From Thioalkalivibrio sulfidiphilus HL-EbGr7 (GTDB lineage: Bacteria > Pseudomonadota > Gammaproteobacteria > Ectothiorhodospirales > Ectothiorhodospiraceae): a DNA stretch of 64,000 nucleotides. Location: NCBI RefSeq assembly GCF_000021985.1, contig NC_011901.1, positions 1,798,001 to 1,862,000 on the forward strand, written 5' to 3'. A program made the position numbers and the translations under genes. The notes under the pieces were generated by a model. It was not told the origin of the DNA. It did not search any database and worked only from the letters and a program-made list of their open reading frames with translations. Below, one piece after another: positions 33,651 to 57,365 of the stretch. The stretch's first letter is position 1. Each line of letters opens with the position of its first letter.

Positions 33651-36714
<3,064 letters not shown>

Positions 36715-36730
<16 letters not shown>

Positions 36731-38394
36731 TTCCCCTGCTCTGTGCGCTGTGCCTCCCTGCCCTGTCCATGGCGCAGGACACCGGCAGCGCGTCGCGTCC
36801 CGGTGATGCCGGGCGTAGCCAGATCGAGACCCGCGCCGTGGATATCAACGCACCGCGGGTGGACGATCAGGAACTGCGCCTGGACAAGGGCAGTCCGGTG
36901 GCCTCCGATGGCGTGCGTGGACAGGGGCTGAGGCTGGATATCCCCGAGGGCTGGTCGCCAGTGACCGGCGATAGCGAGACCCTGTCGCTGTCCGTGGAGA
37001 ACGCGGTGTTCCTGGCCCTGCGTCACAACCGGGCGCTGTCCATCCAGCAGCTGCGGCCGCTGATCACCGGCACCTTCGAGGCCACCGAGCGCGCGGTGTT
37101 CGACCCGGTGCTGTTTGCCGAGGCCAGCCATTCGGGTGATCGGGTGGTCAGGCAGCTGGTGGAGGTCGAGGAAGTCGATCTCGTGACCTCGGATCGGGAT
37201 CTTCTCGAGGCCGGCGTGCGTCAGCAGTTTCCCACCGGTACCCAGGTGGAGCTCAGTCTGAGAAGCGTGCGCAGCGGCTCCAGCCGACTCGATGACGACC
37301 AGTTCAGCGCCCGTGCCGGCATCACCCTGACCCAGGCCCTGCTGCGCGGTGCACGCATGGAATCCAACCTGGCCCGTCTGCGCCAGGCCGAGCTGGATAC
37401 CCTGGCCTCGGAGTACGAGCTGCGCGGATTCGCCGAGGCCCTGGTGGCGGACGTGGAGCGCGCCTACTGGGACTTCGTACTGGCGAGCCGCCGCACGGAG
37501 ATCTTCGCCGAGGCCCTGGCCGTGGCCGAGCAGCAGCTCTCCGATACCCGCAGCCGCATCCGCGTCGGTCAGCGCGCCGAGACCGAGGAGACCGCGGCGC
37601 TTGCCGAGGTGGCCCTGCGACGCCAGGGACTCATCAATGCCCGGGCCCAGCAGGCCACCACGCGCATGCGCCTGTTGCAGCTGGTCAACCCCGCCGGTGC
37701 CAGTTGGGATACGCGCATCGAACTGGAGCAGCGTCCGGAGATCTCCACCAGCGTGCTGGATCCGGTGGACCTGCACGTGCGGCTGGCCCGGCAGTTGCGG
37801 CCGGATCTCAATGAGTCCCGCATCCGCGCCCGGCGCGGCGAACTGGAGGTCATCCGCACGCGACAGGGTCTGTTGCCGCGTCTGGATCTGTTCATCACCC
37901 TGGGCGAGTCCGGCTATGCCGATGCCTTCGGCCGTGCCTGGCGGGATCTGGATGGCCCCGGCTATGACTACAGTCTGGGCCTGCGTTTCGAGACGCCTTT
38001 CGGCAACAGGGCCGCCCAGGCGGAGACGCGCAGGGCCCGCCTGAGTCGCCAGCAGGCCCTGGAGGCCGTGGCCAACCTGGCGCAGCTCGCCGCACTGGAC
38101 GTGCAGACGGCCTGGCTCGAGGCGGAACGCACCCGTGAACAGATCAATGCCACGAAGGTGACCCGCGAGTTGCAGGAAGAGGTATTGCGCGCGGAGCAGG
38201 CGCGTTTCGCCGTGGGCACAGGAACCGCCCTGGCGCTGGCCCAGGCGCAGCGGGATCTGCTGGAAAGCCAGCTGGAGGAAGTGGAGGCGTTGATCCGCCA
38301 TCGCCAGGCCCTCACCGACCTGTATCGTCAGAGCGGAACCCTGCTGATCCGCAGGGGCATCAATGCGGCGGGTGATGAGGAAGTGGTTTTGTAG
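36715..38394 (+). CDS. TolC-family outer-membrane factor
   Basis: A 559-residue protein with a signal peptide (M-H-Q-R-L-I-P-L-L-C-A-L-C-L-P-A-L-S-M-A). Two repeated helical regions are typical of TolC family trimers, seen in the L-R-G-A-R-M-E-S-N-L-A-R-L-R-Q-A-E block and the final Q-A-R-F-A-V-G-T-G-T-A-L-A-L-A-Q-A-Q. It completes the MFP-RND-OMF efflux set. The ~80 residues after the signal peptide are polar and less conserved. A strong hairpin (38429-38452) follows. Confidence 0.9.
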
Positions 38395-39237: not shown

Positions 39238-39963
39238 TCACTGGTTCTCCGGGATGATGACGGTGAGACCGAACAACTGCCACATCTGCATCCCTCCACG
39301 GTAGGAGTAGAGCTTTTCCGCCGGATAGCCAATATCCAGCAGTGCCCTGATGGCCCTGGGAGACTGGTCACACCAGGGGCCATTGCACCAGAGCATGAGT
39401 TCCTTTGCGTCGCTGAAATCCCAGCGACCCTCGTTGGCTGATGCTGTACGGCTCATAAGTCCGCTCAGCCTGTCCAGCAGCCCCGACCACCAGGATGTCT
39501 GCGCCACGCGCGGAATGACGCCAAGCTGTGCCATGAGCCCCTGGAATGCCTGAGTGTCTTCGCTCTCGAGGAATGCGGTAAAGGGAATATGGATGGAGCC
39601 TGGAATCGTGCCGCGCTCGTACCATGCTTGTGTCCTCGCATCGATCAGCAGTTGTTTTTCCGGACCAGCGCCTCGGGAAACGAACTGAAGCAATTCCAAC
39701 TCGCCGACGGTCTTGACATCGGGAGCCACCTGGATCGGATTGATGCAAAATGGTGGGCAATGCCGCGATGTGCGCGCATAGCTCCCGGTGATGACGTGTG
39801 TTTCGTCCTGAATGCGCTGAACCCTTATCTGCTGTTGTCCATGTGATACATCCACGTAGGGAAGATCGGGTGCAATGCCCACCGGATAATCTAGAGATTG
39901 AGATTGGGACTGCGCGCTTGCAGACCAGAATAAGAGACCGAGCAGAATCGCGGCATGCTTCAT
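39238..39963 (-). CDS. Periplasmic rhodanese-domain protein
   Basis: A 241-residue protein with a signal peptide and a rhodanese domain over the C-terminal two-thirds. The catalytic cysteine loop is in L-M-L-W-C-N-G-P-W-C-D-Q-S-P-R-A, with a second Cys five residues on. A-R-T-Q-A-W-Y-E-R-G-T-I-P-G-S-I-H-I-P is the usual rhodanese CH2A block. Two Cys near R-H-C-P-P-F-C could form a disulfide. ATG 39963 follows AAAGGAGG. In the periplasm beside fccAB it could shuttle sulfane sulfur. Confidence 0.85.
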   Translation of the reverse strand: MKHAAILLGLLFWSASAQSQSQSLDYPVGIAPDLPYVDVSHGQQQIRVQRIQDETHVITGSYARTSRHCPPFCINPIQVAPDVKTVGELELLQFVSRGAGPEKQLLIDARTQAWYERGTIPGSIHIPFTAFLESEDTQAFQGLMAQLGVIPRVAQTSWWSGLLDRLSGLMSRTASANEGRWDFSDAKELMLWCNGPWCDQSPRAIRALLDIGYPAEKLYSYRGGMQMWQLFGLTVIIPENQ

Positions 39964-39976
39964 GGTCAGACCTCCT

Positions 39977-40396
39977 TTACATCGAATAGGCAATCTGGCG
40001 CCGGATGACAGCAATCCGGTTGTCCTGTCTGTAGCCTTCATAAATCGTCAGCCGAATGTCTCCGGCGAGGCTCTTGTATATCATGCTGGTTCCGGGGAAA
40101 CGTCGTTCCAGTTCCGCCTCGAAATCCTCAAGGCCCATGCCCGGGGTCATGAAATCCCTGGCGCGCACACTTGCCGGTCGCGTATCGGTGGGGTCCAGTC
40201 GTTGGGCATTGGCGGGTGTATCCAGGACACTTGCCTCCCTTTCGATGGCGCTCAGATAGGGATCTGTGTCGGCAATGAGCTGTCCGCCCGTGAGTGTGAC
40301 GAACAGCGCGAACGGAAGCACTCCAGTTCTGGAACGGCGCCTGATCGATCTCAAGGTTGAGGCCCTCGTACCTGTCAGGTTCTGGTGCTTGACCAT
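39977..40396 (-). CDS. Small periplasmic protein, DNRI family, copy 2
   Basis: A 139-residue protein as drawn from ATG 40396. A TTG start at 40354 would give a neater signal peptide (R-S-I-R-R-R-S-R-T-G-V-L-P-F-A-L-F-V) and has GAGGG eight bases ahead, and I consider it equally likely. The C-terminal core G-L-E-D-F-E-A-E-L-E-R-R-F-P-G-T...D-N-R-I-A-V-I-R-R-Q-I-A-Y-S matches copy 1. It is the gene just beyond the terminator after fccB and directly before the rhodanese gene (13-base gap). Function unknown. Confidence 0.7.
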   Translation of the reverse strand: MVKHQNLTGTRASTLRSIRRRSRTGVLPFALFVTLTGGQLIADTDPYLSAIEREASVLDTPANAQRLDPTDTRPASVRARDFMTPGMGLEDFEAELERRFPGTSMIYKSLAGDIRLTIYEGYRQDNRIAVIRRQIAYSM

Positions 40397-40514: not shown

Positions 40515-41807
40515 TCAGCCCCAGGTGTCCCTGGTGATGCTGGCATACCAACCCCGCGTGAAGATCGCTTCCTGCTGACGCACACCCCTTGCTGCGTCCG
40601 CCGGGCTGACACCACCGCCCTGCTCTGCCTGAATCGAACCTTCTTTGAAACTGTAGACGTTGGCCACGCTGATCCCGTAATCCGGCGCGACCAGGCTGTA
40701 GCAGGTGTTGGCCGTGGATGGAGCGACCATGTCCTGACCGAGGAATGCTCGTATGACCGCCACGGCCGTTACCTTGCCCTGGCTGTTGGCCGAATGACCT
40801 GACTTGGGCATGGCGCCGGCGATGCTGGCATCGCCGATGACATGGATGTTGTCGTGGATCGAGGACTCGAAGGTCAGCTGGTTGACCGGGCACCAGCCTG
40901 TCTCGTTGGTCAGCCCGGCATTGACCGCTATGTCGCCAGCCCTCTGAGGGGGGATGTAGTTGAGCACGGTGGCCTTGAACTCGTTCAGACCGCCATCTGA
41001 CAACGCAGTCAGAGTAGCGGTGTCGATGCGTTCTACCTGCCCGCCCTTGGTGCTGGGCACCCACTCGATCATATCGCCGTAGAGCTCCTTCCAACCCGAC
41101 AGGAACAGACCCTGCTTGGAGAAATTCTCCTTGTTGTCGAGAATGATGATCTTGGACTTTGGCTTGTGCGTCTTGAAGTAGTGGGCGACCATGCTGGCCC
41201 GCTCGTACGGCCCGGGGGGGCAGCGGAAGGGGTTTCCGGGTGCGACCATCACGAACACGCCGCCATCGGGCATGGCCTCGAGCTGGGCACGCAGCAGACG
41301 GGTCTGATGACCCGCCTTCCATGCATGGGGTATGTCCTGACTGTGGGCCGCGGTCATGCCTTCCGCCGCGTTCTCCCAGCGGAAATCGATGCCTGGAGAC
41401 ACCACCAGACGATCGTAATTGAGGGTATTTCCGCCACCCAGCCGGACCGTGCGGCGCTCCGGATCAATCGTTGTGGCACGATCGTGTACGACGCGAACGC
41501 CGGCGGCGCGCAGGCCATCGTAGGTCTGGATGATATCAGACATCTCTGCGATACCACCGAGCACCCAATTGCTGCCATAACAGGTGGCGTAATCCGTGCT
41601 GGGTTCGACCAGAGTGACTTGCATAGCGGGGGAGAAATGCTTGAGATAGCGGGCGCAGGTTGCGCCCCCGGTGCCTCCGCCAATGACGATTACGTGTGCC
41701 TTGGCATGATTGCGGGCACTTGCCTGGCTGGCCAGGCTGCCGAGGCCCAGAGTTGCACCGCCAAGTGCCATGGACTTGAGAAACCTTCTTCGACCTGATG
41801 ACATCAT
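40515..41807 (-). CDS. fccB: Sulfide dehydrogenase (flavocytochrome c) flavoprotein subunit
   Basis: A 430-residue FAD protein with a Tat signal (S-G-R-R-R-F-L-K-S-M-A-L-G-G). FAD binding: V-I-V-I-G-G-G-T-G-G-A-T near 42. The redox-active cysteines are visible in N-P-F-R-C-P-P-G-P-Y-E-R and G-W-C-P-V-N. Later V-I-G-D-A-S-I is the second FAD motif. It oxidises sulfide in the periplasm and passes electrons to the FccA heme. Downstream of fccA (79 bases), it belongs to the sigma54-controlled unit starting at 42288. Confidence 0.92.
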   Translation of the reverse strand: MMSSGRRRFLKSMALGGATLGLGSLASQASARNHAKAHVIVIGGGTGGATCARYLKHFSPAMQVTLVEPSTDYATCYGSNWVLGGIAEMSDIIQTYDGLRAAGVRVVHDRATTIDPERRTVRLGGGNTLNYDRLVVSPGIDFRWENAAEGMTAAHSQDIPHAWKAGHQTRLLRAQLEAMPDGGVFVMVAPGNPFRCPPGPYERASMVAHYFKTHKPKSKIIILDNKENFSKQGLFLSGWKELYGDMIEWVPSTKGGQVERIDTATLTALSDGGLNEFKATVLNYIPPQRAGDIAVNAGLTNETGWCPVNQLTFESSIHDNIHVIGDASIAGAMPKSGHSANSQGKVTAVAVIRAFLGQDMVAPSTANTCYSLVAPDYGISVANVYSFKEGSIQAEQGGGVSPADAARGVRQQEAIFTRGWYASITRDTWG

Positions 41808-41886
41808 GTATGTCTTCCCCTCGTGAACTTGATTGTTGTGTTGTCAGGATCGACGCATGTCTCATGCCTCGATTCGGACATGGCTA

Positions 41887-42198
41887 TTACATGTTGGCGA
41901 TGTAGTCAGCCATCAGTTCGAATTCTTCGTCCGTGTAGCCTTTGGCGTGTCTGGGCATCACAGTCCCTGGGCGTGTGCCGTCGCGGAAGGCCTGCATCTG
42001 GGAGACCATCACGTCGCGCGGGTAGCCGGCGAGGCTGGGCATGCTGCCGTTGCTCTGACCCATCGGTCCGTGACAGGAGAAACAGGTGGCGGCTAGCAGC
42101 GCGCCCCTGCTGGGACCTTCCTCGGCGAGGGCTGTGCCTGATACGAGGCTCAGCGTCAGGGCCACGGGGACAATCAGTGTGAGTGCCTTGAATTTCAT
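41887..42198 (-). CDS. fccA: Cytochrome c subunit of sulfide dehydrogenase
   Basis: A 103-residue c-type cytochrome: a signal peptide to about A-L-A-E, one heme site C-F-S-C-H, and a distal Met in T-V-M-P-R-H. It is a small single-heme subunit as in FccA/SoxE-type flavocytochrome partners. ATG 42198 has a GGAG-like site upstream. It is the first gene after the sigma54 promoter at 42273-42288. Confidence 0.88.
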   Translation of the reverse strand: MKFKALTLIVPVALTLSLVSGTALAEEGPSRGALLAATCFSCHGPMGQSNGSMPSLAGYPRDVMVSQMQAFRDGTRPGTVMPRHAKGYTDEEFELMADYIANM

Positions 42199-42272
42199 CT
42201 GGAGTACCTGTTGTGTTTCAGCCAGTGTGGTGGGCGTCAGGTTTATGTTTTTGTGACGCCTGTGCACACTTA

Positions 42273-42288
42273 TGCAAAGCACGGGCCA
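42273..42288 (-). promoter_or_regulatory. Sigma54 (-24/-12) promoter of fccAB
   Basis: On the minus strand TGGCCCGTGCTTTGCA has GG and GC separated by exactly 10 bases, the -24/-12 pattern. The fccA ATG lies 75 bases downstream. The activator palindrome is ~140-180 bases upstream. Confidence 0.8.
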
Positions 42289-42527: not shown

Positions 42528-43904
42528 TTAATTCGTGATGCCATACTTGACCATCCTGCGCCACAGGGTGGTTCGGTCGATCTCCAGCAGGCTGGCTGCC
42601 AGGGCCCTGTTGCCTCCGGCCTCGTCGAGCGCCTCCAGGATGCGGTCTTTCTCACTGCTGATATCCACCACGTCGGATTCCACGTCAGCGGGTAACGTCG
42701 CGTTCGCGCCGGCGTTTTGTCCAGTGGCGTGCGCATAGTGTCGCTGGATGTCACTGGGCAGGCTGTCCACCTGGATCACGCCGTCCTCGGCGCAGATCAC
42801 GCCATGTTCAATGGCGTTCTCCAGTTCCCGAACATTGCCTGGCCAGGGGTAGTCCAGCAACGCCCCCATGGCCTTTTGGCTGATGCGAAAATCGCTGGCA
42901 TAGCCACGGTTTTCCAGCACCTGGCGATAGTGTTCGATCAGGTGGGGAATGTCGCCGGTGCGTTCACGCAGTGGCGGCACTTCCAACGGGATCACGGCAA
43001 GACGGTAATAAAGGTCGGCGCGCAGGCTGCCGGATTCGAGCAGGTCTTTGGGGTTGCGGTTCGAGGCCGCTATCACACGCACGTTCACCTTGATGGTCTT
43101 GTCGGATCCAACCATCTCGAATTCCTGGTCCTGCAGGGCGCGCAGCAGCTTCGCCTGGATGTTCAGGGGAATCTCCGTGACCTCATCCAGGAACAGGGTG
43201 CCCTTGTGTGCGGACTGGAAGCGCCCTGCCCGGTCATGGAGCGCTCCGGTGAAGGCGCCTTTGACGTGCCCGAACAGTTCGGACTCGATCAGTGATTCCG
43301 GGATGGCGGCGCAATTGACCTCGACAAAGGGTTCCCTGGCCCTTTCACTGAGGGCATGCACCATGCGGGCGAGCCTGGTCTTGCCGGTACCGGACTCACC
43401 CAGGATCAGCAGTGACGCGGTGGTGGGCGCCACCTGCTGGATTCGGGTCACGACATCCCGCATCCGCGAGTCATTGGTGACCATGCCGCCGTCCTGGATG
43501 CTCCCGGACACCTCCTTGCGGCGTCGCTCGGTGATATCGCTGATCAGCACCAGGCGAAGTGTCGTCTTCGCACTGGGCAGGTCCACCAGCCCGCTGTGAA
43601 AGCGCAGAGACGTGAAGCCCCCGTTGCGTTCACGCAGGATCTCGAAACTGAGGAAGTTCCCGCTGGGTCTGCCCGCCGCATCCACTTCACCGGCCTCGAT
43701 GGCGGCGCGCAGCATCTCCTTGTTGAAGCTGATGCCGGGGATGTTTTTCAGATGATCCAGCGGCACACCGCCCTCGATACCGAGCAATTCGAATGACGCC
43801 GGATTCTGGTAGATCACCTCTCCACTGCGTTCGGCAATGACGACACCCTCGTCGATAAAGGCCACCACCGCTTCCATCATCGGCAGCAGGGAACGTATGT
43901 CCAT
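42528..43904 (-). CDS. PAS-domain sigma54-dependent transcriptional activator
   Basis: A 458-residue enhancer-binding protein: PAS-type sensor (~10-125), AAA+ domain with Walker A G-E-S-G-T-G-K-T (~168) and the sigma54-contact G-A-F-T-G-A (~215). R-N-P-K-D-L-L and W-P-G-N-V-R-E-L-E-N follow, then a C-terminal Fis-type HTH (R-A-L-A-A-S-L-L-E-I-D-R-T-T-L-W-R-R). The sensor part has no cysteine, unlike sulfide/polysulfide-sensing FisR, so a bound cofactor or ligand is more likely. ATG 43904 has GGAGGAG. It sits between the two sets of promoters it probably controls. Confidence 0.9.
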   Translation of the reverse strand: MDIRSLLPMMEAVVAFIDEGVVIAERSGEVIYQNPASFELLGIEGGVPLDHLKNIPGISFNKEMLRAAIEAGEVDAAGRPSGNFLSFEILRERNGGFTSLRFHSGLVDLPSAKTTLRLVLISDITERRRKEVSGSIQDGGMVTNDSRMRDVVTRIQQVAPTTASLLILGESGTGKTRLARMVHALSERAREPFVEVNCAAIPESLIESELFGHVKGAFTGALHDRAGRFQSAHKGTLFLDEVTEIPLNIQAKLLRALQDQEFEMVGSDKTIKVNVRVIAASNRNPKDLLESGSLRADLYYRLAVIPLEVPPLRERTGDIPHLIEHYRQVLENRGYASDFRISQKAMGALLDYPWPGNVRELENAIEHGVICAEDGVIQVDSLPSDIQRHYAHATGQNAGANATLPADVESDVVDISSEKDRILEALDEAGGNRALAASLLEIDRTTLWRRMVKYGITN

Positions 43905-44017
43905 CAAACTCCTCCGCAGAGCTTTACTGTTTTAGTCGTCTATTAATCAGAGTAGTCACAATTCCTGCCCCGATTCAATACTCCTTTTTGTTCTCCTCTC
44001 GCCGATTGGCTGCCAAC

Positions 44018-44100: not shown

Positions 44101-44116
44101 TGGCACCCTCCTTGCA
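44101..44116 (+). promoter_or_regulatory. Sigma54 (-24/-12) promoter of the SCP2-MFP-RND operon
   Basis: TGGCACCCTCCTTGCA matches the consensus TGGCAC-N5-TTGCA perfectly, with GG and GC 10 bases apart. Transcription should start near 44127, ahead of the ATG at 44152. The surrounding ~100 bases are AT-rich. Confidence 0.88.
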
Positions 44117-44151: not shown

Positions 44152-44595
44152 GTGTTGTTCAGCCCCACCTGGATGCAGCAGTACCAGCGGATCTGGAATG
44201 CCGATACCGATATGGTCCGGAGCCTGGAGACCGCCCTGTTCAACGGCTCAATTGCCTATGGGTTCATGGGCAAGGTCCGCCCCGAGGGTTATCTGAACGT
44301 CCAGCAGGGCCGCATCGAGGCGGTGTCGACTGCGCTCGCGGACGGCGTGCATCCGGACTGGGATCTGCGCGCCGGCCCCGAGCTCTGGCAGGAATGGATC
44401 ACCTGCCCCCCGGGCTTGATGCAGGTGGGCATGGCCTTCAGTGCCCGCCGTTTCTGCTTCGCCCGGGGTGATTACGTCCAGATCCTCAAGAACCCCCTGC
44501 TTGCCAAGGCCTTTGTGCGCAGCTTCGAACTCATGCACCGGGTGTGTGATGAGGCTGGCGCGGATGCTGTCAGCAAAACTCCGGAGGTGAAGTGA
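44152..44595 (+). CDS. SCP2-like protein
   Basis: A 147-residue soluble protein. The order W-N-A-D-T-D-M-V-R, R-P-E-G-Y-L-N-V, W-D-L-R-A-G-P-E-L-W, and M-A-F-S-A-R-R-F-C-F-A-R-G-D-Y resembles the SCP-2 lipid-binding fold, which carries hydrophobic ligands. The match is by pattern only. It is the first gene after the sigma54 promoter, and its stop overlaps the MFP start (TGATG). A role in handling a lipid or hydrophobic sulfur compound for the pump is speculation. Confidence 0.55.
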   Translation: MLFSPTWMQQYQRIWNADTDMVRSLETALFNGSIAYGFMGKVRPEGYLNVQQGRIEAVSTALADGVHPDWDLRAGPELWQEWITCPPGLMQVGMAFSARRFCFARGDYVQILKNPLLAKAFVRSFELMHRVCDEAGADAVSKTPEVK

Positions 44596-45740
44596 TGTAC
44601 AAGCGCACACCCAAGCATGCGCCCAAAGGACTTTCGTGGAAGACCGTCTGCCGATGTGGGGCCAAGACGCTCTTTTTTGTCACTGTGGTGGGTTTCCTGA
44701 TGGTCCATTCCGCCCGGGGCGAGGTGCTCACGGTGCAGAGCGTGGCGAGCGCGGATCACACGCTGGTCAATGGTCGGGTCATTCCCTTCAGGGAGATCAC
44801 CCTGCGTGCGCGCCTGCCGGGCACGCTCCTGCATGTGGGGCCTGAGGCGGGTGATCAGGTGCCGCCGGGCAGCCTGCTGGCCGTGGTCTCCCATCAGGAT
44901 CTGCTCGCCCAGCGCGACGCGCAGATTGCCACCATCCGCCATGCGCAGGCGGTCCTCGAGAACAGCCAGATCCATTACATGCGCGAAATCTATTCCCCCC
45001 GGGGCTCCGGAAATTCCATGTTTCCGGGCATGTTCGGACTCATGGACAGCATGATGGGCAACGGCTTCAACACCATGCTGGGCAACCACCACCCGCTCCT
45101 GGACCGCCACGCCAATCTCCATGACAGCAGCGTCATGGTGCATCAGGCCCAGACCGCCATCAGCGCCGCTCAGGCCCGCCTGCGGGAGATCGAGGTGCGT
45201 CTCGCGGATGCCATGACCGTCGCCCCCATGGAGGGGGTCATCACCCAACGCCACGTCGAACCAGGTGAATACGTGCAGCCCGGTCAAGCCCTGTTCGGTC
45301 TCGCGCACACCCGCTGGTTGAAGGTGGAAGCGGATGTGCCTACGCGTCTGATGGCCGGTGTCGGCCTGGGTCAGGAGATTGGGCTGCGCCTGGATGGACA
45401 GAGTGCAACGGTGAACGGTCGGGTGTCGCGCATTGCCCCGGGTGCGGACACCCGATCCCAGACCGTTCGCGTCGAACTGGACCTTCCCGCTGATGTGATT
45501 GCTTCCGTGGGCCAGATGGCAGAACTGCGTCTGACCTCTGCCATGGACCGAAGCCATCAGCGTCTTCTGCTCCCCCAGAGCGCCATCATCCAGCGCGGCA
45601 GCCTGCCCTCGGTCAGGGTCCAGGACCCGGATGGCAGCCTGCGTCTGCGGGTGGTGCGCCTGGGTGAACGGCTGGCCGATGGCCGTGTGGAGGTGCTCTC
45701 GGGACTGAGTCCCGGTGACCGGGTGGTGAACGGTCACTGA
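44595..45740 (+). CDS. Met-rich membrane-fusion protein of an RND pump
   Basis: A 381-residue MFP. An N-terminal hydrophobic segment (~25-43) leads to the beta-barrel/lipoyl parts (L-R-A-R-L-P-G-T-L-L-H-V-G, G-D-Q-V-P-P-G-S-L-L-A-V-V). The usual coiled-coil hairpin is interrupted at ~130-170 by an unusual Met/Phe/Gly-rich stretch (S-M-F-P-G-M-F-G-L-M-D-S-M-M-G-N-G-F-N-T-M) and His residues. The closing half is M-T-V-A-P-M-E-G-V-I-T-Q-R. ATG 44595 overlaps the preceding stop. No OMF gene follows, so an outer-membrane channel must come from elsewhere. The Met/His stretch could bind metal. Confidence 0.85.
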   Translation: MYKRTPKHAPKGLSWKTVCRCGAKTLFFVTVVGFLMVHSARGEVLTVQSVASADHTLVNGRVIPFREITLRARLPGTLLHVGPEAGDQVPPGSLLAVVSHQDLLAQRDAQIATIRHAQAVLENSQIHYMREIYSPRGSGNSMFPGMFGLMDSMMGNGFNTMLGNHHPLLDRHANLHDSSVMVHQAQTAISAAQARLREIEVRLADAMTVAPMEGVITQRHVEPGEYVQPGQALFGLAHTRWLKVEADVPTRLMAGVGLGQEIGLRLDGQSATVNGRVSRIAPGADTRSQTVRVELDLPADVIASVGQMAELRLTSAMDRSHQRLLLPQSAIIQRGSLPSVRVQDPDGSLRLRVVRLGERLADGRVEVLSGLSPGDRVVNGH

Positions 45741-45795
45741 GGGTCCGCGCGCGACGTGGACCTCCCCATGGACTCAACTGCACTGCGATGACGCG

Positions 45796-48700
45796 ATGAC
45801 AGATCAAAACAAAGACACCGTAAGCCCGGGTATTGCCGGCAGTCTGGCCAGACAATTCATCCACTCTCCCCTGTCGCCGCTGCTGCTGATGGCGGCCCTG
45901 GCCATCGGCTTCATCGGGCTGGCCATCACGCCGCGCCAGGAAGATCCCCAGATCTCCGTGCCGATGGTGGACATTTTCGTCGCCTATCCTGGCGGTAGCG
46001 TGGAGGAGGTCTCGCGACTAGTCACTGAACCGCTTGAACGCATCATGAGCGAGATCACCGGGGTCAAGCACACCTACTCCGCCTCGCGTCGTGGCGAGGC
46101 CATGGTGACCGTGCAGTTCGATGTGGGCGAGCGTATGGAGGAATCCCTGGTCAAGGTCCATGACCGGGTAATGTCCAACCTGGACCGCATGCCCCCCGGT
46201 GTGTCCATGCCGCTGGTCAAGGCCAAGGGCATCGACGACGTCCCAGTGGTCACTCTCACCTTCACCTCCGAGGAACTGGACGACAACCTGTTGCGCCTGA
46301 TTGCCCTGGATGTGCTGCATGCGGTCAAGGAGGTCCCGGACACGGCACAGGGCTTCGTGGTGGGCGGGCGTCGGGAGGAATTGCGCATCGAAGTGCAGCC
46401 AGAACGTCTTGCCGCATTTGGTCTGGCTGCGCCTGCCATCGCCGAGGCGGTGCAGAGTGCCAACACAGTGCGCCGCGTCGGCAGTTCCGAGCGGGATGGA
46501 CGGGTGCAGGCAGTGCATGCCGGTGCCTTCATCCGCGGCGCATCGGACCTGGAATCACTGGTGGTGGGCGTCTCCGATAACAGGCCCGTCTACCTGGGAC
46601 AGGTGGCCGAGATCCGTCACGGGCTCGAAGAGGCCCGGGACATGGTGATGGATTTCCGCCCTGCTGGGCAGGCCGGCGTGCCTGCCGTGACTCTGGCACT
46701 GGCCAAGAAGCCCGGTTCCAACGCGGTGACCGTGGTGGACGGTGTGCTGCAGCGCGTGGCGCAGATCCAGGGCCAGCGTATTCCAGACAACGTCGATGTG
46801 CACGTCACCCGCAACTACGGACAGAGCGCCAACCAGAAGGTCAATGAACTGATCGTCAAGCTGTTCATTGCCACCGGCGCGGTCACGCTGCTGGTCTGGC
46901 TGTTCCTGGGGCTGCGTGCCGCCATCGTGGTGCTGGTGGTCATCCCGGTGGTCATCCTCAGCACGGTGTTCTCTGCCTGGCTGCTGGGTTACACCATCGA
47001 CCGGGTGTCCCTGTTCGCGCTGATCTTCGCCATTGGCATCCTGGTGGATGATGCCATCGTGGTGGTGGAGAACATCTACCGTCGCTGGCTGATCAAGGGC
47101 AGTCCGGATACCGAGACCACCGTGGATGCGGTGCGTGAAGTAGGCAACCCCACCGTGCTCGCCACCCTCACGGTCATCGCGGCCTTGCTGCCCATGGGCT
47201 TCGTCGGCGGCATGATGGGCCCCTACATGGAGCCGATCCCGGTGCTGGGTTCGGTGGCCATGGTGCTATCCCTGTTCGCCGCCTTCGTGTTCACGCCCTG
47301 GCTGACCCAGCGTCTCAAGCCCAGCCTGGAGAAACTGCACCAGGCCGAGACCAGCGAACATCGTCAGGCCGAGCGTCTGGAGCGGGGTTTCCACCGCATC
47401 CTGGACCCGCTCATCGACGACCGCCGGCGCGGCTACCTGTTTCTGGTGTCCCTGGTGGTGGTGTTCTTCCTGTGCACGCTGCTGTTTTACACCAATTCCG
47501 TGCGCGTGAAGATGCTCCCTCTCGACAACAAGCCGGAATTCTCGGTGGTGATCAACTTCCCGGAAGGCACTGCTCTGCCGATCACCTCCGAATGGGGTAA
47601 TCGCATGGCACAGGCCTTGCTGTCCATCGATGAGGTGACTGGGGTTCAGCTCTATGCCGGCACCGCCGCACCGTTCAACTTCAATGGCCTGGTGCGCCAC
47701 TACTATCTGCGCCAGGATCCCTGGCTCGGTGAACTGCAGGTGCAGCTCACGGACAAGTCCGAACGCCGTCGTTCCAGTCACGAGATCGCCAGTCACGCCC
47801 GGGAACTGCTCACCCCCCTCGCCGCCACGGCAGGGGCCCGTATCCAGGTGGTGGAAATGCCGCCGGGACCGCCGGTGCTCCAGTCGGTGGTCGCCGAGGT
47901 GTATGGTGCCGATCCCGTCGAGCGACGCGCGCTTGCCGTTCACCTGGAAGAGACCTTTGCCCGTGCGGCGAATCTCACCGATGTGGACAGCTACCTGCAA
48001 CAGGCCACCCTGAGGACGCATTTCCAGGTGGACCGGGACCGCGCCCAACGGCTCGGGGTGCGTATCGAGGATATCAACCAGGCCCTGGAGGCCACCCTGG
48101 GGGGACATCGTCTGGGTGACATGAAGACGGCACATTCCCTGGAACCGGCGGCCATTGTCATGGAGGTGCCGCTGGCACGTCGGGCCGAACTGGGCCGCCT
48201 CGCCACCCTGCCCGTGCGCACCCGTCTGGGGGGCACAGTGGCCCTCTCGGAGCTGGGCCGGTTCGTGGAGTTCTACGAAGAGGATCCCATCTACACCAAG
48301 GATCTGCGTGGCGTGGAGTATGTCACTGCCGAGGTGACCGGACGGCTCGCTGCCCCCATCTATGGCATGCTGGAAGTGGAGGCCCTGCTGCGGGAGTCCG
48401 CGGGTGATGGCGGCCTTGAACAGGGCGGCAGTTTCTTCTCGGTACCCGAGACAGGCACCGGTACGGGGTTCATGTGGGGCGGCGAGTGGACTGTGACCTG
48501 GGAGACCTTCCGGGACATGGGCATCGCCTTCGGTATCGCCCTGATCCTCATCTACATGCTGGTGGTCTGGGAGTTCGGCAACTTCATGCTGCCTGCCATC
48601 GTCATGGCACCGATCCCCCTGACCCTGATTGGCATCATTCCCGGGCACTGGATCATGAATGCCGAGTTCACGGCAACTTCCATGATTGGCTTCATCGCCC

Positions 48701-49581
48701 TGGCGGGAATCATCGTACGCAACTCCATCCTGCTGGTGGACTTCTCCAAGCAGAAGGTGGCCGATGGCGTGCCGGTACGGGATGCCCTGCTCATGGCCTG
48801 CACCACCCGCACGCGTCCGATCCTGATCACCGCACTGGCCCTGGTGGCTGGCTCCGGGGTGATCCTGTTCGATCCCATCTTCCAGGGGATGGCCATCTCG
48901 CTGATGTTCGGCGTGCTGGTCTCCACCCTGCTGACCCTGGTGGTCATCCCTCTGGGTTGCCTGAGCGCACGCCGCTACTTCTGTGCCGGCGGCGGGTCTG
49001 CGCAGGAGGGTGTCGTCATCGCATCCGGTCCCGGCGGTGTCGCCACGCTGTATCCGGGACATGACGCCGGGGGCACCAGCAGCGTTTCCCCGGGCAAACA
49101 GGGTATCGCGAGCCTGGTCCTCGAATACGGCATCGCCTATCTGCGCATCATCGTCACCGAGACCCTGGATGGACTGCGCCAGTGGCTGGTTATCGGATGG
49201 AAATCCATTCCCAGACTCCTCGCCTTCTTCAGGACCCGTGGTGCGGGGCACGCGACAGGTCCTGCGACGACAGAGACACCCGCTGCCACGGCGAGGTCAT
49301 CACCGTTCTCCGATCCTGCCGAGCAGGGTGCTGACTCCCGGACCGGGGATGTTGAGGAGGTGCCGAGCCAGACGGCGGATAGCCGGCAAGGAAAACCTGC
49401 AAAAGCCCGTGCCAGGACGCCTGCCGCGCGCAAGGCCAAGCCGGCCCGGGGGGCTGCCCCGCAGAAGAAGACCTCAACCCCGCCCAACAAGGTCCGAACC
49501 AAGGCCGGCACGTCGAAGCGCCGTGGCATTCGTCTTGACGATCCGACCACGGGACCCAAGGACACAGGAGATGAAGCATGA
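45796..49581 (+). CDS. RND permease with long basic C-terminal tail
   Basis: A 1261-residue RND transporter. Residues 1-1055 follow the family: TM1, L-P-G-type periplasmic loop, TM4 with G-I-L-V-D-D-A-I-V-V-V-E-N (both Asp present), second loop, and A-G-I-I-V-R-N-S-I-L-L-V-D in TM10. About 200 residues follow the last helix; the end (~1198-1245) is Lys/Arg/Ala/Pro-rich, like a histone H1 tail, and must lie in the cytoplasm. This tail is not usual for RND pumps. The gap from the MFP gene is 55 bases and the next gene overlaps by four bases. Confidence 0.9.
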   Translation: MTDQNKDTVSPGIAGSLARQFIHSPLSPLLLMAALAIGFIGLAITPRQEDPQISVPMVDIFVAYPGGSVEEVSRLVTEPLERIMSEITGVKHTYSASRRGEAMVTVQFDVGERMEESLVKVHDRVMSNLDRMPPGVSMPLVKAKGIDDVPVVTLTFTSEELDDNLLRLIALDVLHAVKEVPDTAQGFVVGGRREELRIEVQPERLAAFGLAAPAIAEAVQSANTVRRVGSSERDGRVQAVHAGAFIRGASDLESLVVGVSDNRPVYLGQVAEIRHGLEEARDMVMDFRPAGQAGVPAVTLALAKKPGSNAVTVVDGVLQRVAQIQGQRIPDNVDVHVTRNYGQSANQKVNELIVKLFIATGAVTLLVWLFLGLRAAIVVLVVIPVVILSTVFSAWLLGYTIDRVSLFALIFAIGILVDDAIVVVENIYRRWLIKGSPDTETTVDAVREVGNPTVLATLTVIAALLPMGFVGGMMGPYMEPIPVLGSVAMVLSLFAAFVFTPWLTQRLKPSLEKLHQAETSEHRQAERLERGFHRILDPLIDDRRRGYLFLVSLVVVFFLCTLLFYTNSVRVKMLPLDNKPEFSVVINFPEGTALPITSEWGNRMAQALLSIDEVTGVQLYAGTAAPFNFNGLVRHYYLRQDPWLGELQVQLTDKSERRRSSHEIASHARELLTPLAATAGARIQVVEMPPGPPVLQSVVAEVYGADPVERRALAVHLEETFARAANLTDVDSYLQQATLRTHFQVDRDRAQRLGVRIEDINQALEATLGGHRLGDMKTAHSLEPAAIVMEVPLARRAELGRLATLPVRTRLGGTVALSELGRFVEFYEEDPIYTKDLRGVEYVTAEVTGRLAAPIYGMLEVEALLRESAGDGGLEQGGSFFSVPETGTGTGFMWGGEWTVTWETFRDMGIAFGIALILIYMLVVWEFGNFMLPAIVMAPIPLTLIGIIPGHWIMNAEFTATSMIGFIALAGIIVRNSILLVDFSKQKVADGVPVRDALLMACTTRTRPILITALALVAGSGVILFDPIFQGMAISLMFGVLVSTLLTLVVIPLGCLSARRYFCAGGGSAQEGVVIASGPGGVATLYPGHDAGGTSSVSPGKQGIASLVLEYGIAYLRIIVTETLDGLRQWLVIGWKSIPRLLAFFRTRGAGHATGPATTETPAATARSSPFSDPAEQGADSRTGDVEEVPSQTADSRQGKPAKARARTPAARKAKPARGAAPQKKTSTPPNKVRTKAGTSKRRGIRLDDPTTGPKDTGDEA

Positions 49582-49844
49582 ACTATCCATTCATCAAGGG
49601 CGTAACCCTGATCGCCCTCGCCGGCCTCATGGGCGTATCCATGGCCGGGACCGTGGAACAGGGGCAGGCCGCCAGGACCGTGGAGGTACCTGTGCCCCAC
49701 ATCGTGCGGCCCGCACATCCAATGGTGCCAGGACCCTATCGGTCCGATGAGTTCTTCATGGTCTTGGAACCGCTGAAGCACCCCGGCCAGGCGCACATGC
49801 CGGTCCGGCGACAGGGCGACGATGCAACGGGTAGCGGTTCATGA
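49578..49844 (+). CDS. Small secreted protein, unknown
   Basis: An 88-residue protein with a signal peptide ([17 protein letters not shown]) and a short Pro/His-rich mature part. I recognise no family. It overlaps the RND gene by four bases (ATGA) and the next small gene by four, so it is part of the operon. Likely periplasmic or envelope-associated. Confidence 0.7.
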
Positions 49845-50128
49845 GTCCGTGCAGGCTGCTTTGGGTTCCTGTGCTGGCGGGCGCCCTGATACCCGGGGTT
49901 GCCCTTGGCGGACAGTGGACGCTGCGAGGTGGCGAAGCGCCGAACCAGGCCCGTCACCCGGTTTATGTCAGTCCCGGATACAACCCCATGAGCCCGGTGC
50001 ATCCAGGAACCGTGGGACTGCGGCATCTCGAACAGCCGGCCGAACCGCGGGGGACTGCTGGCGCTCTTCCCCCGGGCCTTGGCCATCTGCATCTATTTCC
50101 CGTGCCACCGGTGATCACCTCCTGGTAG
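49841..50128 (+). CDS. Small secreted Gly/Pro-rich protein, unknown
   Basis: A 95-residue protein with a signal peptide ending near A-L-G-G and a Pro/Gly/His-rich mature part ([11 protein letters not shown]). No recognised domain. The ATGA overlap with its neighbour supports translation. Its composition is similar to the sulfur-globule-like protein encoded just downstream. Confidence 0.68.
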
Positions 50129-50232
50129 GCGCCAGAACGGAATCATCACGATCGCACCGACGGTCCATCCCTCCCGTCAGGAACGCGTCATTCAAGCGAG
50201 GGGTTTCTGATCCAAGCAACGAGGTAATGAAC

Positions 50233-50721
50233 ATGGCTCAATCCACACTGAAGATGATCCTGACCGGTGCCGTGGCAGCGACTGCAATGTCCGTCGGCAG
50301 CGCCCAGGCCTGGTTCTATGGCCCCGGCCATGGCATGGGCAACATGCTGGGTGATTTCAACATGTCCGTACGCGGAGGCGGCCAGGGTCACGGTTATGGT
50401 TATCCCGCATACGGTTATCCCGGTTACGGAGCGCCCGTGTACGGTGCACCGGGTTTCGCCGCCCCAGGCTATGGTGCACCCGCACCCGTGTACGGCGCGC
50501 CGATGATGCCCCACTACGGTCACCCGGGTTACGGTCCTGGCTTTGGTCATGGCGGCGGCAATTTCAACATGGGCTTCCAGGGCGGTGGTTACGGTCACCC
50601 GGGTTTTGGCTATCCCGTCTATGGCGCGCCCGGCATGCCTGTTCCCATGTATCCCCAGCAGCCCTACGGTGCTCCGGGAGCCCAGCAACAGACACCGCCC
50701 CCCCAGCAGGAAGGCAACTGA
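50233..50721 (+). CDS. Sulfur-globule-like Gly/Tyr/Pro-rich secreted protein
   Basis: A 162-residue protein: a signal peptide, then [18 protein letters not shown], then repeats of [10 protein letters not shown] and P-V-Y-G-A-P. This layout (signal peptide, aromatic/Gly start, then G-Y-P repeats) is that of the structural proteins coating periplasmic sulfur globules in purple sulfur bacteria. ATG 50233 has GAGG eight bases upstream. The neighbours (fccAB and the sigma54 operon) make a sulfur role plausible. An unrelated low-complexity envelope protein is the alternative. Confidence 0.68.
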
Positions 50722-50784
50722 CCGTCATCAGGGCACAGGGACGTGCCCGCCTGTCTGTGCCTACAGGGGGGAGTCATTGATCTG

Positions 50785-51426
50785 ATGAACATACTGTGTG
50801 CAAGCCTCAAGGGTGGCAGCGGGAAAAGTACCCTGGCATTCAATCTGGCGGTCTGGCTGTGTCATAAGGACATTAAGTGTCATGTGCAGGATCTTGATCC
50901 TCAGGCGACGCTGAGTTCTGTCATGTCCTTGCGCAGGCGTGAGTCACTGGGTCCCGTGCCGAATCAACTGCCGTCCTCAGGACCGATTGGACAGGCTCAG
51001 GGACTGACGGTGATAGACGCGAGCGCGGGTGATCCATGGTGTTTTGCCAAGGCGATCAAGATGGCAGACCTGATCATCATGCCCGTATGCCCGAGTCAGG
51101 CAGACGTGTGGTCAACGCAGAGATTCATTCGACAGATTTCTGGAATTCGAGGGGACCTCGCGATCGACTGCATGGCATTCATCAATCGCGCGGACACGCA
51201 TCCTGGGATGTCGGAAACCGCAGAGACCGAGGCCGTTCTGCTGAAGATGGAGGGTATCTGCTACACGGGAAAACGCCTTGGCATGCGTGCGGCATTCAGG
51301 CGTGCTTTTAGCGAAGGCGTATCCGTGAACGAGCTGGATCCAGGCAGTCAGGCTGCTATCGAGTTCGATGCCCTCGCCACACAAATCCATGAAACCATAC
51401 ATCACACGCTACAGAGAGGCTCATGA
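50785..51426 (+). CDS. Orphan ParA-like ATPase
   Basis: A 213-residue ParA/MinD-type ATPase. The deviant Walker A is K-G-G-S-G-K-S-T at about 10, followed by V-Q-D-L-D-P-Q-A-T, and a Walker B-like V-I-D-A-S-A-G-D. There is no N-terminal DNA-binding extension and no ParB gene, as for the McdA and ParC-type positioning ATPases. ATG 50785 follows GGGGGGAG. It is encoded between the sulfur-globule-like protein and two membrane proteins, one with a coiled coil, which could be its partner. Its stop is overlapped by the next gene. Confidence 0.83.
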   Translation: MNILCASLKGGSGKSTLAFNLAVWLCHKDIKCHVQDLDPQATLSSVMSLRRRESLGPVPNQLPSSGPIGQAQGLTVIDASAGDPWCFAKAIKMADLIIMPVCPSQADVWSTQRFIRQISGIRGDLAIDCMAFINRADTHPGMSETAETEAVLLKMEGICYTGKRLGMRAAFRRAFSEGVSVNELDPGSQAAIEFDALATQIHETIHHTLQRGS

Positions 51427-52211
51427 TGAAGCGCCTGTTGTTGATGTTGTTCGTTCTTTTAGTCCTCTTAAGTGGTGCTGCGGGTGCGTACTGGGCCACC
51501 ACGAAGCCGGCAGAGTTCCAGGCACTTCGTGATCGAGTGAGCACCGGCGTCGAGACGAAATGGCTGGCCCTGCGCGCAAGTCTTCCAGGCGGGCGGGAGT
51601 CAGTACAGACGGCCGGTTCCGTGACAGGTGCGGGTGAGGCCGACAGCCCTCAGAGAGACGAGGTTGCGGCGCTGGAACCGCACACTGATGGACGTGGGGT
51701 TCATCGGTACTCCGACAATCGAGCTCCGGTCAGGACGGTCATGACTATCGACACTGAACAGAGGGCCCCTGCTGCGCTACGACCTGTAGCGAACCAGGAT
51801 GCGGTGCCGGAGCCATCCCTGAGACAACCCTGGTGGATGGAAGATCCTGGCCTTGCAGCGCAATGGGACCGTGCGCGCCGCCTTGCCTGGCAGGGCGATC
51901 TGGAGCAGGCCCTGGTCATCATGCGTGGGCTGGCCAGTGAACATCCTTCCGCCCCCAACCTGCACGGCGAACTGGGCAATCTGGAGTGGGCGATGGGCCA
52001 TGTATCCGATGCGGCTGCCCACTATCAGCATGCCATGGAGGCCTGGCTACAGGTGTGCCGATTCGACCGGGCAATGATGACTGCTCGCCTGGTGGCCTGG
52101 GTTGATCCGCAGAGCAGCGAAGCCCTCCAGAGACGGTTCACTGATGAGGCCTTGCACGCGCGTTGCGCCCAGCATTCTGGGCACGTCCACGGTGGGGAAA
52201 TGTCGCGATGA
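51423..52211 (+). CDS. Membrane-anchored protein with TPR-like C-terminus
   Basis: A 262-residue protein with one N-terminal helix (M-K-R-L-L-L-M-L-F-V-L-L-V-L-L), a long polar linker, and a C-terminal segment (~150-235) resembling one or two TPR hairpins (A-R-R-L-A-W-Q-G-D-L-E-Q-A-L, H-G-E-L-G-N-L-E-W-A-M-G). The end of the chain has extra Cys and His. It overlaps the ParA gene and the next gene, so it is in the same operon. Role unknown; likely scaffolding in the periplasm. Confidence 0.7.
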   Translation: MMKRLLLMLFVLLVLLSGAAGAYWATTKPAEFQALRDRVSTGVETKWLALRASLPGGRESVQTAGSVTGAGEADSPQRDEVAALEPHTDGRGVHRYSDNRAPVRTVMTIDTEQRAPAALRPVANQDAVPEPSLRQPWWMEDPGLAAQWDRARRLAWQGDLEQALVIMRGLASEHPSAPNLHGELGNLEWAMGHVSDAAAHYQHAMEAWLQVCRFDRAMMTARLVAWVDPQSSEALQRRFTDEALHARCAQHSGHVHGGEMSR

Positions 52212-52714
52212 ATGATACACAATCCGTATCGGTCGATGCCCGCTCTCACGGGATTCCGGAGGTCATGGTTCAGCGACTGAGGCTGGTGGTCTATTCCGCC
52301 CTGCTTGCCTTTGTCGTTCTGGCAAGCTTCGGTTTTTACCTGATCTACAACCTCACCCAGGACGTGCGCCAGCTGTCCAGGAACATGGCCGTGCTGACGG
52401 TCTCCATGGACGAGAACATGAGACGGGTAGTGAGTAACATGGATCACATGACCGGTTATGTCGGACGGATCGATCAGTCCACACAGACCATATCCCTGTC
52501 CATGCGCGGGATGCAGCACGACATGGGGCAGATGAACCACAACGTCTCGGCCCCCATGGGCTTCATGAACAGCTTCATGCCATGGGGTTCTGGAGCGCCG
52601 GCCCGGGGCTACAACGGCTACCCGCCTCCCCTGCACTATGGCTATCCCCTGGAAATGAACCCTGCCTCTGCCCGTGTGCCCATGCAGCAACCTGTCCCGC
52701 CCATGTCGCGGTGA
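52208..52714 (+). CDS. Membrane coiled-coil protein with Met- and Gly/Tyr-rich tail
   Basis: A 168-residue protein: one membrane helix (~26-49), a coiled-coil stretch (~50-105; T-Q-D-V-R-Q-L-S-R-N-M), then a Met-rich portion (M-R-G-M-Q-H-D-M-G-Q-M-N) and a Gly/Tyr/Pro tail with A-R-G-Y-N-G-Y-P-P-P. The tail resembles the sulfur-globule-like protein in the same operon. ATG 52208 overlaps the preceding stop. It is a candidate membrane partner of the ParA ATPase. Confidence 0.72.
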   Translation: MNDTQSVSVDARSHGIPEVMVQRLRLVVYSALLAFVVLASFGFYLIYNLTQDVRQLSRNMAVLTVSMDENMRRVVSNMDHMTGYVGRIDQSTQTISLSMRGMQHDMGQMNHNVSAPMGFMNSFMPWGSGAPARGYNGYPPPLHYGYPLEMNPASARVPMQQPVPPMSR

Positions 52715-52733
52715 CTCCACAGGGAGATTGAAC

Positions 52734-53321
52734 ATGAAAACCGTGCGTAATCTGCTGGCCCTGGCAGGCGTGTTCCTGATGATTCCGGTGATCTATCTGG
52801 CCTTCGTTCTTGCACCCTATGTGTCGCAGTTTCAGGCGCTGGATGAGGGTGCCGCGAGGGTGTATCTCACTATGGCCCGAACCGTGCTCTCTTCCGGGGA
52901 TGCGGCTGAGGCCACGGTGTACAAGCGACGCGTGGAACCCGGTCTTGGAATCGATGAAGTGGAAGAGACCCTGCGATTCGTCGCCAACGAACTGAACGTC
53001 AGGAATGTCGGCGAGTTGCCCATGTACCTGGAGGTCCAGGCACTGACCGGCGAAGCGTTCCCGTTCCTCAAGATCTATATGTTCTGTGACGCAGGTATCG
53101 CGTCGAGGATGGTGACCTACAGCAGCGCCATGGCGGCGTACCTCCCGTGTCGGATCGTGTTACAGGAAGACGCAGACGGTAACCTGTGGCTGATGACGCT
53201 CAACCTCGACCTGATGATCCACGGTGGCAAGCCGTTGCCAGAGGATCTGCTCAAGGATGCGTTGTTCGTCCGGGACTCGCTCAACGAGATCATTGACAGG
53301 GCCGCCACGGGTGCATTTTGA
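52734..53321 (+). CDS. Membrane-anchored DUF302 protein
   Basis: A 195-residue protein with an N-terminal helix (~5-28). A DUF302-like domain follows, recognisable from the E-E-T-L-R-F-V start, Y-M-F-C-D-A near the middle, then L-P-C-R-I-V-L-Q-E-D-A-D-G-N and a closing D-L-M-I-H-G-G. ATG 52734 has AGGGAGA. It is the last clear gene of the operon that began at 44152. Another DUF302 gene is at 12136-12582. The domain is common in sulfur oxidisers but its reaction is unknown. Confidence 0.75.
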   Translation: MKTVRNLLALAGVFLMIPVIYLAFVLAPYVSQFQALDEGAARVYLTMARTVLSSGDAAEATVYKRRVEPGLGIDEVEETLRFVANELNVRNVGELPMYLEVQALTGEAFPFLKIYMFCDAGIASRMVTYSSAMAAYLPCRIVLQEDADGNLWLMTLNLDLMIHGGKPLPEDLLKDALFVRDSLNEIIDRAATGAF

Positions 53322-56837: not shown

Positions 56838-57206
56838 TCAGTAGGTGAAGGTGACGGTGTCGTCGTCCATGGCCTCGCTGATCACGTAGGCGCCACCGAC
56901 GGTCTCTTCGATCTCGGGGATCAGGTCGTCGCCCCACAGGTCCAGGGTCGGGGTGCAGACCTTGAACTTCACGCCGGCTTCGGCGGCGTCCTTGATGAAC
57001 TCATACACGGACTTGGGGCTGCCTTCCTGCACGAACAGGTTTTCAGCAACGCCCTTCTTGGCCAGCTCGCCGGCACGGCCGGTCATGACCACTTCCACGT
57101 CATATTCCATGGCGGCTGCCACGGTGGCCTGGAAGAACGGGGCACCCAGTTCGGAGGGGTTGGTGGGGTCGGTGTTGACCATGACGATCAGCAGCTTGTC
57201 AGCCAT
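56838..57206 (-). CDS. DsrE/DsrF-family protein
   Basis: A 122-residue protein starting M-A-D-K-L-L-I-V-M-V-N-T-D-P, with a single mid-chain Cys in V-C-T-P-T-L-D-L-W-G (near 82) and an acidic end. This is the DsrE/F fold; the Cys position suits sulfur binding. It differs from the DsrE of the DsrEFH complex and is closer to stand-alone DsrE-like proteins. ATG 57206 has a weak ribosome site. A sulfur-carrier or peroxiredoxin-like role is inferred. Confidence 0.78.
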   Translation of the reverse strand: MADKLLIVMVNTDPTNPSELGAPFFQATVAAAMEYDVEVVMTGRAGELAKKGVAENLFVQEGSPKSVYEFIKDAAEAGVKFKVCTPTLDLWGDDLIPEIEETVGGAYVISEAMDDDTVTFTY

Positions 57207-57365
57207 TTGAGTAATCTCCAGCAGTGAGTCGTGCTTGAAAGAAAGTGCGGCATTATAGGGACGTGTTCCCCGCAAAGCCAGTCACCTTACTAGCTCCGTG
57301 GGAGGGCAAAAATCACCTGATGCGGGCATAAATTATAGCTCTGCTCCGGCGCTTTGTCGGTCGGT

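Follow-up and report, generated by a model that had tools for sequence, protein, structure and literature searches.

Why should a ParA-type ATPase with no ParB beside it be encoded next to a secreted protein resembling the coat proteins of sulfur globules? This arrangement is found in Thioalkalivibrio sulfidiphilus HL-EbGr7, within a stretch of 64,000 nucleotides (contig NC_011901.1, positions 1,798,001 to 1,862,000) that we call the window and whose numbering is used below. An earlier note on this DNA had suggested a positioning system for envelope complexes or sulfur globules, with one of two nearby membrane proteins as adaptor. The link between ParA and sulfur globule genes in that suggestion is supported by the recurrence of the gene set and by the way in which ParA tracks the sulfur globule protein (Sgp); the adaptor part is not, and comparison of sequences indicates that the partner that follows ParA is probably the C-terminal tail of a resistance-nodulation-division (RND) permease encoded in the same gene run. 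We propose, with a probability of roughly 0.6, that the locus is a conserved operon for the export and assembly of sulfur globules with a ParA positioning module, in which ParA would bind the pump tail and place the globule-building complex.

Gene organization of the ParA locus

The source genome is a single contig of 3,464,554 bases and contains dsrA. Positions 44152–53321 of the window form a same-strand, operon-like run of ten genes, listed here in order together with two features of the permease. Values after profile names are E-values unless given in bits, and fractions give the number of loci with a same-strand orthologue around ParA, among the 80 loci described in the next section.

44152..44595 (+): SCP-like small protein, first gene of the run; 5' of ParA in 17/80
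44592..45740 (+): RND periplasmic adaptor (membrane fusion protein, MFP); HlyD_3 5.6e-19, TIGR01730 1.8e-41; 46/80
45796..49581 (+): RND permease with a long C-terminal tail; ACR_tran 1.2e-144; 61/80
48958..49578 (+): C-terminal tail of the permease, low-complexity and net-basic, residues ~1055–1261
49519..49536 (+): tail motif RRGIRL, permease residues 1242–1247, putative ParA-binding element
49578..49844 (+): small protein 1, with an N-terminal hydrophobic stretch, probably secreted
49841..50128 (+): small protein 2, probably secreted as judged by eye
50233..50721 (+): Sgp-like secreted Gly/Tyr/Pro-rich protein; PF17228, 25.4 bits
50785..51426 (+): ParA ATPase, ParF-like; invariant KGGxGKST and DLDPQATL
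51423..52211 (+): tetratricopeptide repeat (TPR) protein, membrane-anchored by an N-terminal transmembrane segment, bulk probably periplasmic; TPR_14 1.2e-4, below cut-off; 36/80
52208..52714 (+): transmembrane/coiled-coil protein, with a short N-terminal part, one transmembrane segment and then a long Met-rich part; 61/80
52734..53321 (+): DUF302 protein, membrane-anchored; PF03625 2.4e-11; 25/80

Four of these genes (Sgp-like, ParA, TPR and transmembrane/coiled-coil) had been described in the earlier note and lie exactly where it placed them; it had overlooked both the longer run to which they belong, with MFP and RND genes upstream and DUF302 downstream, and the motif in the pump tail. Five adjacent gene pairs in the run overlap by 4 bases. 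The permease matches ACR_tran over its full length (residues 20–1053) and has its MFP partner encoded alongside, as is typical of an RND pump.

ParA matches the CbiA and AAA_31 profiles. Its Walker A sequence is LKGGSGKST (residues 8–16), and it has the features of the deviant-Walker ParA/MinD group: the signature lysine of KGGxGK[ST], a Walker A' of the form DxDPQ and a ParA fold. Residues K9, G10, G11, G13, K14, S15 and T16 and the stretch D36–T42 are invariant across 28 ParA sequences. The predicted structure has a mean predicted local distance difference test score (pLDDT) of 91.2 and is closest to the ParA of TP228, ParF (Foldseek template modelling score about 0.8 to 5u1g and 4dzz; profile E 1e-14). 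That no ParB is encoded beside it is borne out: the ten proteins of the operon region gave no match to a ParB- or ParG-type family, in a search that extended neither to parS nor to the remainder of the genome.

The Sgp-like protein matches PF17228 with an E-value of 2.7e-5, its score lying slightly under the cut-off of 26.7 bits, and is the sole match to this family in the whole genome. Of five Sgp candidates from other ParA loci compared with Pfam, those of L037 (33.7 bits) and L045 (35.1 bits) are above the cut-off and three have no match. Many Sgp-type genes at ParA loci encode a signal peptide-like start followed by a core resembling GDFSMNFSGRGSG.

A Pfam search with one orthologue of the SCP-like protein gave no match, and its likeness to SCP2 is our assumption. 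Relatives of the two small secreted proteins were looked for across the 80 ParA loci and none was found. The FC...PC cysteines of the DUF302 protein are present in 25 of 26 sequences; we take this pair to be general to DUF302 and therefore claim no novelty for it. In the transmembrane/coiled-coil protein, alignment shows a variable N-terminus apart from the stretch before the transmembrane segment, with basic residues directly before that segment. The earlier note had seen in the tail of this protein a likeness to Sgp. The likeness is compositional, and we reject the idea of a conserved Sgp mimic, because Sedimenticola-type orthologues (alignment A2) end at FMPW.

ParA loci share a recurring gene set, and ParA tracks Sgp

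A scan with the ParA protein identified 153 relatives among 236 candidate stretches, of which the best 80 were used as loci; in these, same-strand genes near ParA were assigned with profiles built from the neighbours, many of the loci being cut by contig ends. The 80 loci span gammaproteobacteria, alphaproteobacteria and Magnetococcales, and include Thioalkalivibrio, Sedimenticola, Thiothrix, Beggiatoa, Thioploca, Thiorhodospira, symbionts, Magnetococcales and Rhodospirillales, all of which we take to be sulfur oxidisers or groups containing them; about 22 are titled merely "Gammaproteobacteria bacterium". The recurring neighbours of ParA are envelope proteins. The gene set, which the earlier note proposed to look for in other sulfur oxidisers, recurs in many lineages. 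The plain RND count is used in the list above, given that as much as 5 kb may separate the end of the RND gene from ParA. At least 45 of the 80 loci have an Sgp-type gene upstream of ParA; this figure excludes a 46th locus (L068) whose match is 8.6 kb away, and is a lower bound because the profile missed the visible Sgp-like gene of L038.

Two further genes recur, each in 33 of the 80 loci. The first encodes a conserved secreted protein 5' of ParA (for example L038:8127-8996 and L099:7194-7967), with no Pfam match or a very weak one (DUF4412), which we presume to be LolA-like. The second, which is not part of the window operon, lies 3' of ParA and encodes a dynamin-like GTPase with two predicted transmembrane segments (for example L037:10880-12445, L045:11547-13040, L197 and L198); the L045 protein matches PF00350 at 3e-16.

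Co-occurrence was analyzed in 274 gammaproteobacterial genomes, 66 of which were matched by the ParA profile at E 1e-25. The scores are separated by a gap (50 at ≥192 bits, the next score up being 192.6, and 16 at ≤117), on which basis 50 were called orthologous and 16 were left out. PF17228 matches occur in 43 genomes (41 above cut-off) and dsrA in 93 (87 above cut-off). Both ParA and Sgp are present in 39 genomes, ParA only in 11, Sgp only in 4 and neither in 220 (p 1e-32; odds ratio 195), so that ParA occurrence tracks the sgp-like gene; an unrelated occurrence would have spoken against the earlier suggestion. The p-values for co-occurrence carry no kinship correction beyond family grouping and are inflated by kinship. 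For ParA and dsrA the corresponding counts are 44, 6, 49 and 175. Within the dsrA-positive genomes the ParA/Sgp counts are 35, 9, 4 and 45 (p 1e-12), and by family label they are 24, 7, 2 and 134 (167 families, this being the highest label seen rather than a known total). Within one family (f125) ParA is found in 11 of 20 genomes and Sgp in 8, and all eight Sgp genomes have ParA (8/3/0/9, p 0.001). In 14 of 50 ParA loci, ParA and a PF17228 match are no more than 3 kb apart. One genome (G345) has a second, weaker ParA match.

The RND permease carries a C-terminal tail with a near-invariant motif

The RND permeases at ParA loci continue after the twelfth transmembrane helix into a low-complexity tail of 95–370 residues ending RRGI[RQ]LK. 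Tails were measured in 58 permeases, the RND loci L073, L076, L096 and L102 being left out for want of an anchor, and 53 of the 58 are net positive. Of the 62 RND copies whose 3' end is intact, that of the window among them, 61 have the sequence [KR]RGI[RQ]L within their last 60 residues and the 62nd has RRGIRIK. Among 6250 open reading frames there is one further carrier, which lies at the margin of L103, is rich in Lys, Ala and Pro, and is probably a cut RND end. We take the motif to resemble the (K/R)RGLGRGL of ParB. A paralogous RND clade, 44–46% identical, ends 10–24 residues past the core, and tail and motif are absent from 21 of the 21 members fetched. The window holds a second set of MFP, RND and outer membrane factor genes, identified by eye at 32442-38394 (+), whose RND permease has neither tail nor motif.

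Presence of the motif follows presence of ParA

A first look at 45 chosen genomes found the RND clade in question (1240–1490 bits) in genomes that have ParA or Sgp; the one other genome was G208, in which the gene is truncated by the contig end. Four genomes have Sgp and no ParA: in two (G126 and G250) the permease is tail-less, in G186 the tail ends STRKSVRIKQNPSDES, and in G134 it ends RRGIRLK, the contig ending 0.7 kb past the RND gene.

Two families were then compared. In f81, ParA is absent from all 20 genomes, and the RND orthologues lack tail and motif in 13 of 13 assessable cases; the two f81 loci of G126 and G250 hold RND, secreted proteins, Sgp, LolA-like, TPR, coiled-coil and dynamin genes in order, with no ParA. 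In f141, ParA is present in 43 of 57 genomes and the motif in all 39 that could be assessed (37 in the strict form, WRGIRL in G298 and LRGIRL in G385; G340, G343, G359 and G371 were not assessable). Of the 14 f141 genomes without ParA, six have no RND permease of this clade (G346, G347, G368, G378, G386 and G387), one has it cut off (G351), three lack the motif (G186, G384 and G358, the last counted so with its third RND copy cut by a contig end) and four carry it. Over both families the motif is thus present in 39 of 39 genomes with ParA, and without ParA it is present in 4 and absent from 16 (p 4e-11, uncorrected for kinship; p 0.002 without f81).

These data bear on the possibility that the motif serves this pump subclass in assembly, stability or DNA tethering, that the neighbouring ParA regulates or partitions something else, and that shared ancestry explains the correlation. 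In its favour, the tails are Lys/Ala/Pro-rich and histone H1-like by eye; phylogenetic non-independence inflates the p-values, and the loss of the tail in f81 may be a single event. However, three observations argue against it. First, all 11 genomes that have ParA and two or three assessable RND copies carry the motif on one copy only (WRGIRL in G298), and this copy is on the contig of ParA, on the same strand and 0.9–3.7 kb from it, measured from the end of the core match. Second, in five draft genomes (G353, G367, G376, G385 and G389) ParA and the motif-bearing permease are on separate contigs, and the motif is retained. Third, in a FastTree phylogeny of 64 RND cores (G186 entered twice), permeases without a tail fall within the tailed clade in several groups: f81 together with G384, beside the tailed L108 and L175; an f141 group of L204–L207 and L218; another of L209, L216 and L219; and G186, beside G298. 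Repeated, derived loss of the tail is the simplest reading of this tree, and regain in L108 and L175 is possible. We consider this alternative unlikely, if one to be taken seriously.

A second alternative is that ParA contacts the short N-terminus of the transmembrane/coiled-coil protein, whose periplasmic coil would reach the globule, the RND tail serving otherwise. This protein is linked to ParA as widely as is the RND permease, and the basic residues directly before its transmembrane segment, with the long part after it, suit such a role. However, its N-terminus is poorly conserved, and both it and the TPR protein, the adaptors suggested in the earlier note, are retained without ParA in the two f81 operons read, where the RND tail is gone; the coiled-coil protein is retained in G186 also. 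We therefore reject it as a dedicated ParA adaptor. What distinguishes RND copies beside ParA from those elsewhere is the tail motif, and contact through the coiled-coil protein seems to us distinctly improbable.

An ordinary drug or metal efflux operon lying by chance beside a partition-like ATPase and low-complexity secreted proteins is very improbable: RND and MFP families are common and the window Sgp falls short of the Pfam cut-off, but the neighbours recur over three lineages, ParA co-occurs with Sgp, Sgp proteins above cut-off lie beside ParA in L037 and L045, and the paralogous RND clade has no tail.

Proposed mechanism

In the reading that we prefer, the RND–MFP complex would span the envelope, and would work with the periplasmic Sgp coat and the TPR, coiled-coil and DUF302 proteins at a globule-building site, presumably as an exporter. 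The SCP-like and DUF4412/LolA-like neighbours hint weakly at a lipid or hydrophobic cargo for the pump. ParA-ATP would bind the nucleoid. The RND trimer would present three low-complexity tails in the cytoplasm, each ending RRGI[RQ]LK, which would play the part that the activating peptide of ParB or ParG plays towards ParA, binding the ParA dimer and triggering ATP hydrolysis; on hydrolysis the pump would follow the ParA gradient, with globule-building sites thereby spaced over the length of the cell and passed on to both daughters. The trimer would thus be the transmembrane adaptor, its tails holding ParA in the cytoplasm while pump and MFP hold the globule proteins in the periplasm.

We propose the trimer for this role because the ParA is ParF-like and activator peptides carry a key basic residue. 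According to PMC12462528 and PMC13170346, activators of ParA/MinD ATPases are short peptides with a key positive residue, those of ParB having hydrophobic residues and a central arginine or lysine. RRGIRL fits this description. For TP228 ParG, an arginine in the N-terminal tail has been suggested to act as an arginine finger, a role that PMC12462528 calls into question.

Several observations weigh against this mechanism. The main weakness is that the tail may contain a thirteenth transmembrane helix, in which case the motif would lie in the periplasm. A 19-residue stretch with a Kyte-Doolittle mean of at least 1.6, as in transmembrane segments, is found in 40 of the 58 tails; 11 are intermediate, the window among them (1.50), and 7 are below 1.0. 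An AlphaFold model of RND residues 1–1150 (mean pLDDT 74.5) has a 44-residue helix at 1104–1147, modelled with low confidence (block pLDDT 50–69). The seven tails without a hydrophobic stretch keep the motif, which argues against a periplasmic location. Five of the 58 tails (L032, L040, L044, L085 and L090) are not net basic. Known activator peptides are at or near the N-terminus, in the parts of PMC12462528 and PMC13170346 available, and the motif here is C-terminal; the same sources map PomY activity to its C-terminal region, a partial precedent.

The genomic associations also have exceptions. PF17228 has no match in 11 of the 50 ParA genomes, and four of the 43 Sgp genomes lack ParA. ParA is co-encoded with its proposed cargo and co-evolves with it, as in ParA systems that position cargo, except that the motif occurs without a ParA match in G134 and in four f141 genomes (G348, G352, G381 and G388). 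In G348, G352 and G381 the contigs end 1.9–2.3 kb past the RND gene, and ParA is perhaps unassembled. G388 (locus L321) has an intact RRGIRLK tail, yet its genome gives no ParA match; the 9.8 kb of DNA that follow lack the usual genes, and on present data this genome is a genuine exception.

A bolder form of the proposal, in which ParA acts across the inner membrane to move or space a storage organelle that lies outside the cytoplasm, via the RRGI[RQ]LK peptide of the pump as transmembrane adaptor, with the dynamin-like GTPase remodelling the membrane in many lineages, we hold to be tentative, at slightly short of even odds. If the preferred reading is right, ParA positioning would reach through the inner membrane and a pump would double as cargo adaptor, through a short peptide open to direct biochemical test.

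Comparison with known systems

The locus resembles the TP228 ParF–ParG system in its small ParF-like ParA and in the basic activating peptide proposed to lie on a flexible tail. It differs from ParABS and TP228 in that the proteins scanned include no ParB- or ParG-type match, and in having as its proposed partner a membrane pump whose peptide would be C-terminal. With McdAB of carboxysomes, the chemoreceptor ParA and PomXYZ it shares a ParA encoded with the genes of a cargo other than DNA. Unlike in those systems, the cargo here would lie outside the cytoplasm, and force would therefore have to cross the inner membrane. No small McdB-like partner was recognised among the neighbours, no dedicated or profile search having been made. 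The RND permease shares the core domain (ACR_tran) and the MFP partner of RND efflux pumps, and differs in its added tail with the RRGI[RQ]LK end; it belongs to a clade apart from the 44–46% identical tail-less relatives.

SgpA–D of Allochromatium vinosum are coat proteins of family PF17228 and, like the Sgp-like protein here, are secreted and Gly/Tyr/Pro-rich; no ParA link was found in the accessible parts of the literature on them. The A. vinosum SgpD gene adjoins a hydrophobic/amphiphilic exporter gene, according to the available part of PMC10386293, and a link between exporter and Sgp thus has precedent. The accessible parts of PMC10386293, PMC11267869, PMC11773610, PMC3368242, PMC4213376, PMC5358917 and PMC6509183 make no mention of a ParA link, the tail motif or the dynamin-like GTPase. 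In the open-licence literature, as far as its text was available, no description was found of how periplasmic sulfur globules are placed or inherited, which does not prove absence; where ParA, sulfur globules and positioning are named together, ParA is raised only in speculation on carbonate inclusions, and texts on sulfur globules with RND pumps or dynamin do not describe this cluster.

Genes surrounding the operon

Between the operon and genes that we take, by eye, to encode a flavocytochrome c sulfide dehydrogenase (40515-42282, minus strand) lies a sigma-54-type activator gene, identified by eye (42528-43907, minus strand). The flavocytochrome c-like genes adjoin a gene for a secreted rhodanese-like protein, also by eye (39238-40041, minus strand). 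The window contains four sigma-54-like sites where 0.86 are expected, of which two are placed as follows.

44101..44116 (+): sigma-54-like -24/-12 site 5' of the run, TGGCACCCTCCTTGCA, 1 mismatch
42273-42288 (-): second -24/-12 site with one mismatch, near the start of the flavocytochrome c-like genes

Joint sulfide control of the flavocytochrome c-like genes and the operon is possible from this arrangement. A divergent relative of the activator gene is present in L037 and L067, with a -24/-12 site in L037 only (2 mismatches). A site near the first gene was found in 2 of 35 loci (the window and L037), against 19 of 1361 background windows. Control by sigma-54 is therefore rejected as a trait common to these loci and could at most be lineage-specific. 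On the other side of the operon, a small protein that we take by eye to be DsrE-like is encoded at 56838-57275 on the minus strand, near purine salvage-like genes.

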